Assembly (NCBI RefSeq): GCF_018918095.1
Contig: NZ_JAHLPV010000008.1
Span: 1 to 64,000 of the forward strand
Length of the DNA stretch: 64,000 nt
Direction of reading: 5' to 3'
Origin: Acetivibrio sp. MSJd-27
GTDB taxonomy: Bacteria > Bacillota > Clostridia > UMGS1840 > HGM11507
In this document: positions 16,429 through 50,122 of the stretch, piece after piece
Numbering within the stretch: the first letter of the stretch is position 1
Layout of the letters: every line of letters begins with the position of its first letter
Translations under genes and position numbers: made by a program
Notes under the pieces: model-generated
What the model saw: only the letters and a program-made list of their open reading frames with translations
Databases searched by the model: none
Told to the model about the DNA's origin: nothing

Positions 16429-16788
16429 CTATTCCATTTTTTCCCCGCAGGAGATGCAATAGTTCGCTTCCAGCGCGTTCTCTTTTCCGCATTTGGCACA
16501 TTTCTTCACGTTTTTCGTCTTGGCAATTTGATCGTTCAAAAGGGCAAGTGCAGCATTTTTATTGTCCATATCACGGCAGTAAATCAGATATTCTTCGTTG
16601 ACTTCAACACCGGCCTTGTAATCGCTATATAACTTTTCGCCCAGCTGTTTTGCCAGTTCATCTATCTGAGATTCCACCTCATTTACGGAAAAACGCAGTT
16701 TTGTTGCCTCTAACAGTTCATTGGATTTTGCCACAGCCTTTTCTGTGGTTTTCTTTACATTACCTTTGACACTTTCAAACCAATCCAT
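16429..16788 (-). CDS. Small zinc-ribbon protein with coiled-coil
   Basis: The 119-residue soluble protein has a charged helical region (about 1-85; NKNAALALLNDQIAKTK and VESQIDELAKQLGEKLYS look like coiled coil) and a C-terminal zinc ribbon with two CxxC pairs (KCAKCGKENALEANYCISCG). GGAGGAGGATCC precedes the ATG. Zinc-ribbon proteins of this form are common in Clostridia and are generally uncharacterised; the function here is unknown. Confidence 0.8.
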   Translation of the reverse strand: MDWFESVKGNVKKTTEKAVAKSNELLEATKLRFSVNEVESQIDELAKQLGEKLYSDYKAGVEVNEEYLIYCRDMDNKNAALALLNDQIAKTKNVKKCAKCGKENALEANYCISCGEKME

Positions 16789-16833
16789 AATGGATCCTCC
16801 TCCGTCATAAAAATATCTTTTCTATTTGATTTT

Positions 16834-16952
16834 ATGATACCATAAAAGCAACGCTTTTCGTGGTATCATTGTCCATAGGCTTCGGTTGTACGGACTTGTT
16901 CCGGACGAGAAGCCCGGACATCCCTGTATAATATGCCCTGTGCATATTATAC
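16834..16952. repeat. Two perfect intergenic hairpins
   Basis: ATGATACCA (16834-16842) pairs with TGGTATCAT (16861-16869), with an inner AAAAGC/GCTTTT stem. GTATAATATGC (16926-16936) pairs with GCATATTATAC (16942-16952). Neither has a T tail. They sit just before the tandem repeat units in a 411-base gap that has no gene. Confidence 0.7.
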
Positions 16953-16956
16953 CACA

Positions 16957-17051
16957 ACAACGAAGGCGGCGAAATGTCGCCACAGTATTGTGATTCAATC
17001 GTTCTCCAAACCTCTTAACATTTTCAATGTTCTAGAGGTTTGTGAGGTTAT
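16957..17051 (+). repeat. ~95-base structured repeat, copy 1
   Basis: The unit runs from ACAACGAAGG to GTGAGGTTAT. It folds into two hairpins: GGCGGC/GTCGCC with loop GAAAT, and CCTCTTAACATT TTC AATGTTCTAGAGG. Copy 2 starts 105 bases later. The orientation of transcription, if any, is unknown. Confidence 0.75.
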
Positions 17052-17061
17052 CTAAAATGCA

Positions 17062-17155
17062 ACAATGAAGATGGCAGTTTGTCATCGGAATATTGCATTT
17101 CAATGTTCTCCGAAGCTCTTGGCATTTTTAATGCCTTAGAGGTTCGTGAGGTTAT
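17062..17155 (+). repeat. ~95-base structured repeat, copy 2
   Basis: It aligns to copy 1 along its length at roughly 70-75 percent identity by eye. In the first hairpin GGCGGC/GTCGCC becomes GATGGC/GTCATC. In the second, AACATT/AATGTT becomes GGCATT/AATGCC. Both sets of changes preserve pairing. Both copies end in GTGAGGTTAT. Confidence 0.75.
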
Positions 17156-17199
17156 TATACCACACTAGGATTTTCTTTTCAATATACTGACATCTAAAT

Positions 17200-40111: not shown

Positions 40112-40381
40112 ATGAGCAAATGCATTGAAGATATTAAACGTCAGCATTTCGTTTTTTCAGAGAGCCGCTGGATGGTGTGAAGCGGCAGGCGAAGTTTTCG
40201 TTGTCTCGTATCAGAGCAGGATTTCTGAACGCTCAGTAAGAAATCCCGGGAGATCCCGTAACAGATCAAGGGCTTGATGGAGTCCAATGAGTGGTTTCCC
40301 AATGGGAAACAATGCCGGGTGGTACCGTGGTCGATTTGATCATCCCGCAGAGATTTTGTAAATCTCTGCGGGATTTTTTTC
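40112..40381 (+). promoter_or_regulatory. T-box leader (tRNA-sensing transcription attenuator)
   Basis: The diagnostic T-box sequence GCCGGGTGGTACCGTGG is at 40314-40330. It is followed by a perfect 15-bp terminator stem ATCCCGCAGAGATTT/AAATCTCTGCGGGAT (40342-40356 with 40360-40374) and a T run. Stem I is bounded by GAGC (40114-40117) and GCTC (40231-40234) with an AGAG motif and a distal hairpin GCCGCT/AGCGGC. I could not fix the specifier codon: CTC (Leu) at 40205-40207 and ATT/TTC triplets near 40220-40224 are both possible. Uncharged cognate tRNA should favour read-through into the gene at 40413. Confidence 0.95.
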
Positions 40382-49847: not shown

Positions 49848-50122
49848 CATCCGCACTAACCGGGGAGTTAGCGGTGCCCTGTACCTGCAATCCGCTATAG
49901 CAGGGGTGAATGCTTCCGCGCGGCTGTCGTTCTGTATAGCTGGTGTTTGTAAGTGGTGATGAGATTTTGGTCCTGTGCAACGTTTGGCTGTGAACCTCGT
50001 CAGGTCGGGAACGAAGCAGCGATAAGCAGTTTTTTGCGTGTGCCGCGGGGTTGCTGAAGTTGAGCTAACTGCAAAAGTGCCGTGTATAGACGGCTGTCAA
50101 TCGGAAGCTGTGCGGTTTTTTT
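49848..50122 (+). ncRNA. ffs: SRP RNA, large Bacillus/Clostridium type
   Basis: The conserved SRP domain core GTCAGGTCGGGAACGAAGCA lies near 50000-50020. The Alu domain signature GGGGAGTTAGCGGTGCCCTG with CTGCAATCCGCTATAGCAGG is near 49861-49900, and GTGCCGCGGGGTTGCTGAAG near 50038-50058. The ends pair: CCGCAC (49851-49856) with GTGCGG (50110-50115), followed by a T run. About 270 bases is the normal size of the large Firmicute form. Its place upstream of dnaX is the classical location. It works with Ffh and the FtsY encoded at 27955. Confidence 0.96.

Follow-up and report, generated by a model that had tools for sequence, protein, structure and literature searches.

The window analyzed here is a stretch of 64,000 nucleotides of Acetivibrio sp. 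MSJd-27, and at 16952-17159 it holds two tandem units of a repeat made of hairpins. An earlier note on this DNA had described a tandem repeat of about 95 bases; we confirmed the tandem arrangement, but the start-to-start spacing is 104 bp. The right halves of the two units (51 nt) align without gaps at 82% identity, and each unit carries GTGAGGTTAT at its right end (17042-17051 and 17146-17155), the shared ending that had been reported. A different hairpin module lies directly left of the pair and follows the same junction rule as the repeat. The features are as follows.

16952-17051, plus strand: unit 1 of the putative mobile repeat, with hairpin 1, the linker word TTGTGATTCAATCG, hairpin 2, and the right end GGTTAT
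17052-17159, plus strand: unit 2 of the putative mobile repeat, which closes with the element right end GGTTATTATA (17150-17159)
About 16953-16992, plus strand: hairpin 1 of unit 1, with a GGCG/CGCC stem and a basal stem CACAA/TTGTG
17004-17046, plus strand: hairpin 2 of unit 1, with the base CTC...GAG and the top AACATT/AATGTT
About 17055-17100, plus strand: hairpin 1 of unit 2, with a GATG/CATC stem
17108-17150, plus strand: hairpin 2 of unit 2, with the top GGCATT/AATGCC
16944-16951, plus strand: left junction word ATATTATA of unit 1, which reads TATAATAT on the minus strand with TG-G from the element before it, resembling an extended -10
16840-16951, plus strand: third, different hairpin module, with the left word TTATGATA at 16832-16839 and ATATTATA as its own end
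16429-16788, minus strand: zinc-ribbon gene downstream of the promoter that appears to hold the insertion
17182-17154, minus strand: predicted promoter TTGAAA-17-TATAAT with TG (11 of 12 matches in a standard promoter scan), whose -10 is the right word of the element

The predicted promoter at 17182-17154 lies upstream of the zinc-ribbon gene (16788-16429), for which the nearest -10-like word is TATCAT (16834-16839), 46 nt before the start codon. Shuffled sequence gave 1.6 promoter-like sites per region, so the site at 17182-17154 counts only together with the pattern seen across the family. The module at 16840-16951 contains a TGTCC...GGACA hairpin and has a palindromic TATAATATGC/GCATATTATA end, and similar modules lie beside other copies of the repeat (L014, L015, and L018). 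Elsewhere in the window, Rfam identified a T-box leader (40116-40350) and a bacterial large SRP RNA (49851-50115), both ordinary.

We found that a 231-nt stretch folds far better than its dinucleotide shuffles, with z = -5.8 as RNA and z = -7.1 as DNA. The paired substitutions that had been said to keep both stems are indeed present, and many species show such changes too. In an alignment of 47 diverse copies, hairpin 2 follows a common plan, (TGATnCAAT)G-TTCTC-C-GAAAC...variable stem...GTTTC-G-TGAGG-TTATTATACCA, and 13 of its 19 stem pairs show two-sided changes. The alignment has 134 two-sided cells against 42.5 +/- 4.7 after shuffling, a covariation score of 0.434 against 0.173 for shuffled and at most 0.114 for slid alignments, and 92% paired cells against 77% for shuffled and at most 50% for slid alignments. 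The fold is under constraint, and free change is seen in hairpin 1 and in the top of hairpin 2. On the plus strand of the element, the inner pairs include 13 G-T wobbles versus 4 A-C mismatches, which are small numbers from a partly biased collection; the excess of wobbles hints, weakly, that selection may act on the fold of the strand complementary to the downstream mRNA.

Copies of the repeat are dispersed through the genome and through the class. BLAST found 42 matches to the repeat in the own genome, and a covariance model, as the earlier note had proposed for the genome and its relatives, found 46 copies of hairpin 2 there and strong matches in 33 of the 391 genomes of the class (E up to 1e-6, these E values being rough). 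G167 and G281, two congeneric species, carry 49 and 64 copies. BLAST across 40 relatives detected the repeat in the own genome only, which reflects the limit of its sensitivity, since the covariance model did find the relatives' copies. In a genome-contig collection, 75 stretches contain the conserved end TTYGTGAGGTTATTATAYCA, where by our own estimate about two would be expected. Most of these stretches are from Oscillospiraceae, Ruminococcaceae, and other Clostridia, and a minority (e.g., L075, L094, and L097) are without hairpins and look like chance matches. There were no true copies among 49 pattern matches in viral contigs, plasmids gave no match to the region, and the element had no match above gathering score in Rfam 15. 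In G167 and G281, hairpin 2 has another top (CAGCCGTC...GACGGCG-like) and the end words are unchanged. Another class of hairpin, CTCAGCCGTC...CACGGCGTG, shares these end words; it was seen at L022, L038, L040, and L043 in the own genome and at L074 and L177, and it is the usual form in both G281 and G167. We also observed a repeat of about 300 bp at L183, L184, L185, and L190 (G002 and G003), apparently bounded by GTGTCAAGTC/GACTTGACAC inverted repeats, in which copies of hairpin 2 are nested.

Each unit consists of a left word TTATTATA, CCA, the variable hairpin 1, TGATaCAATG, hairpin 2, and GGTTATTATA, followed by the flank, and the two hairpins together give it a length of about 75 to 130 bp. 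In chains, the two ends of each spacer pair with one another and differ between spacers, and what we call hairpin 1 is such a spacer. Over 51 spacers, the best 10 positions hold a mean of 7.6 pairs with the spacer's own ends versus 6.4 with foreign ends, a figure that also takes in plain hairpin pairing. The right word is always preceded by GG. Because three copies in G000 (L019, L022, and L023) have TTATGATA as the left word but TTATTATA as the right word, the right word appears to be borne by the element; in most copies, duplication of up to 8 bp of target would look the same as an element-borne right word.

We compared 30 loci at orthologous positions in G281 and G167, which are about 90% identical, and found five clean differences between empty and filled sites, in both directions. 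These were L308 (one unit) versus L315, L294 (six matching hairpins in series) versus L317, and L297 (four in series) versus L329 and, in the other direction, L336 versus L347 and L339 versus L350. The empty site has TTATTATA once in all five cases. The filled site has TTATTATA or a near copy on both sides, with the old flank after the right word and element sequence after the left word. L340/L351 fits this pattern less exactly, and four further places (L298/L328, L303/L330, L334/L345, and L338/L349) were too rearranged for a clean empty site. This presence and absence is the sequence pattern expected of mobile element insertion, and at a single site precise deletion between the flanking words could leave the same pattern. 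Together with the many dispersed structured copies and those in relatives, the empty sites support the idea of a hairpin-recognized mobile repeat, one of those raised in the earlier note. As for the refuting outcome named in that note, the searches of the genome and relatives did not yield it.

If the element were a classical MITE, mobilized by a DDE transposase and with TTATTATA as a target duplication of 6 to 8 bp, this word would likewise flank filled sites on either side and be present once at empty ones. However, the outer ends of the element are not inverted repeats, the left end being CCA and the variable hairpin 1 and the right end GGTTATTATA. GG stands before every right word, and the three G000 copies have different words on their two sides. 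These observations make a DDE-type MITE rather unlikely.

The target word TTATTATA is the reverse complement of the promoter -10 box TATAATAA, and in most cases it occupies the position of a promoter -10 box on the opposite strand. Among 91 arrays with both neighbors nearby, as drawn by a simple open reading frame caller, the left gene points away from the element in 81 (P = 6e-15), and the count is similar by group (32/35 in G000, 16/19 in G281, and 33/37 in the others). Right-hand genes are unbiased (53/91). At exactly 17 nt from the -10, 44 of 115 right flanks agree with TTGACA in at least 4 of 6 positions, and the mean -35 match at this distance is 2.92 against 1.67 +/- 0.10 in shuffled flanks (12 standard deviations), an enrichment that was seen separately in each of three groups. 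No -35 was found behind the left word, inside the element. NCA follows the left word in 47 of 61 cases, a few of which come from truncated loci and represent the right word instead, compared with 318 of 1,668 control words. This left end of the element is TGn on the transcribed strand and fits an extended -10. The next start codon lies a median of 42 nt from the left word. About a tenth of the copies are not upstream of the left gene. Insertions in terminator T tracts instead of promoters were observed at L339 (versus L350), L176, L178, L181, and L188; several such copies are in G002 and G003. Free intergenic TTATTATA words have the same orientation bias (17/21). Therefore, choice of the target by its word suffices, and a preference for open transcription bubbles is not needed.

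Covarying hairpins at the predicted 5' end of a transcript, in one orientation to the next gene in 89% of cases, would also be expected of a riboswitch- or attenuator-like RNA leader that acts in cis, is kept at promoters for its function, and is not mobile. However, the neighboring genes are unrelated and share no common function, sister species differ in its presence at the same genes, and hairpin 1 and the top of hairpin 2 vary freely. Rfam holds no match, the wobble counts lean (weakly) to the strand opposite to the mRNA, and the orientation bias is equal for free target words. We consider a regulatory leader improbable. A free-standing structured small RNA, another suggestion of the earlier note, was not indicated by these data, in which the copies are linked to the promoters of genes unrelated to one another.

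No Y1_Tnp match was present in G167 or G281 despite their 49 and 64 copies, hairpin 2 was found at none of 15 Y1_Tnp loci, TnpB was absent from 8 genomes, and no neighbor gene recurred as a candidate mobilizer. The IS200-like elements of the own genome carry another hairpin. Their Y1 transposase genes occur in at least five copies at contig ends (C16, C30, C66, C7, and C42; L135-L139), where they break the assembly, and in the four read in sense, a hairpin CCACCAGC.../GCTGGTGG lies behind T tracts, unlike that of the repeat. A REP/BIME-type repeat mobilized by a domesticated Y1 transposase (TnpA_REP, or RAYT), the partner that the earlier note had suggested looking for, would account for a short intergenic hairpin with a conserved mid-stem irregularity, many copies, and tandem arrays, all of which the element has. 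However, REP sequences recognized by RAYT have GTAG/GTGG at the 5' foot of the hairpin, whereas the foot of the element is CAATGTTCTC, or ATAACCTC on the other strand. Its chains run in the same direction and are not REP/inverted-REP pairs, it is widely conserved between species, and it has no associated RAYT. Given also that no copy lay beside any Y1 gene examined, this explanation is largely refuted and very improbable. Local tandem duplication and drift with hairpins retained by chance, which the pair taken alone would suggest, is refuted by the 46 copies in the genome, the many species, and the covariation.

We conclude that the pair is probably two copies of a small nonautonomous mobile element of Clostridia that inserts at TTATTATA, usually a promoter -10 box. 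The element would join the 3' side of TTATTATA and bring its own end, GGTTATTATA, so that two -10 boxes would be present after insertion. The right -10 would keep the native -35, and transcripts from it would start on hairpin 2 (in the window, that of unit 2), giving a predicted cotranscribed leader with a 5'-terminal hairpin. The left -10 would receive TGn from the element and become an extended -10, by which, judging from the sequence, the target gene could remain active. The end of the element is itself a target word, so new copies would adjoin old ones and chains would grow; near-identical chains seem to point to tandem duplication too.

Single-strand transposition of the IS200/IS605 type involves hairpins, a target word equal to the end word, and an internal complement (PMC6006769). 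Like derivatives of these Y1 HUH elements, the repeat has subterminal imperfect hairpins, appears to join 3' of a short target word that equals its right end word, and seems to have an internal word complementary to the target. Its target word, however, is longer than the usual tetranucleotide and equals the promoter -10 box, and no resident insertion sequence or transposase with its ends was found among the genomes searched. Because the tests of membership that depend on the enzyme came out negative, we write that the element may work like IS200/IS605, not that it is such an element. We propose only tentatively, as the least certain step, that a single-strand HUH-type transposase acts on the hairpins and mobilizes the element in trans, guided by pairing of the word that precedes hairpin 2 with the target and end words. 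More speculative still is a promoter-targeting mobile element whose internal guide pairs with the -10 box, whose mover is not a recognized Y1 transposase, and which would give the host gene an extended -10 and an upstream promoter with transcripts starting on a stabilizing 5' hairpin.

Other small repeats share parts of this architecture. BOX, RUP, and SPRITE are folded repeats of intergenic regions that combine modules in varying number and are probably parasitic (PMC3049150). By their described architecture the pneumococcal repeats resemble the element in these respects; they are nearly confined to Streptococcus pneumoniae and its close kin, whereas the element is found in many Clostridia, at promoter -10 boxes. 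The neisserial Correia elements are small repeats able to bring promoter parts to host genes (PMC3049150); as described there they are bounded by 26-bp inverted repeats, whereas the element is two hairpins without terminal inverted repeats. The conserved strings of the element gave no match in the openly accessible literature, and nothing close was found there on promoter-targeting or Clostridial MITEs. Subscription papers may hold an earlier description. As judged from sequence, its breadth across Clostridia and its promoter -10 target would set the element apart among small nonautonomous structured repeats.

These data caution against taking such covarying hairpins upstream of genes for riboswitch candidates. 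The element family is in no RNA library that we searched, and it raises the question of its mobilizing enzyme. Sister species in which a given gene has or lacks the insert offer natural experiments on how a promoter can withstand an insertion in its -10 box. If our reading is correct, many genes of Clostridia bear a recurrent, datable change of promoter and leader that stems from one element family.
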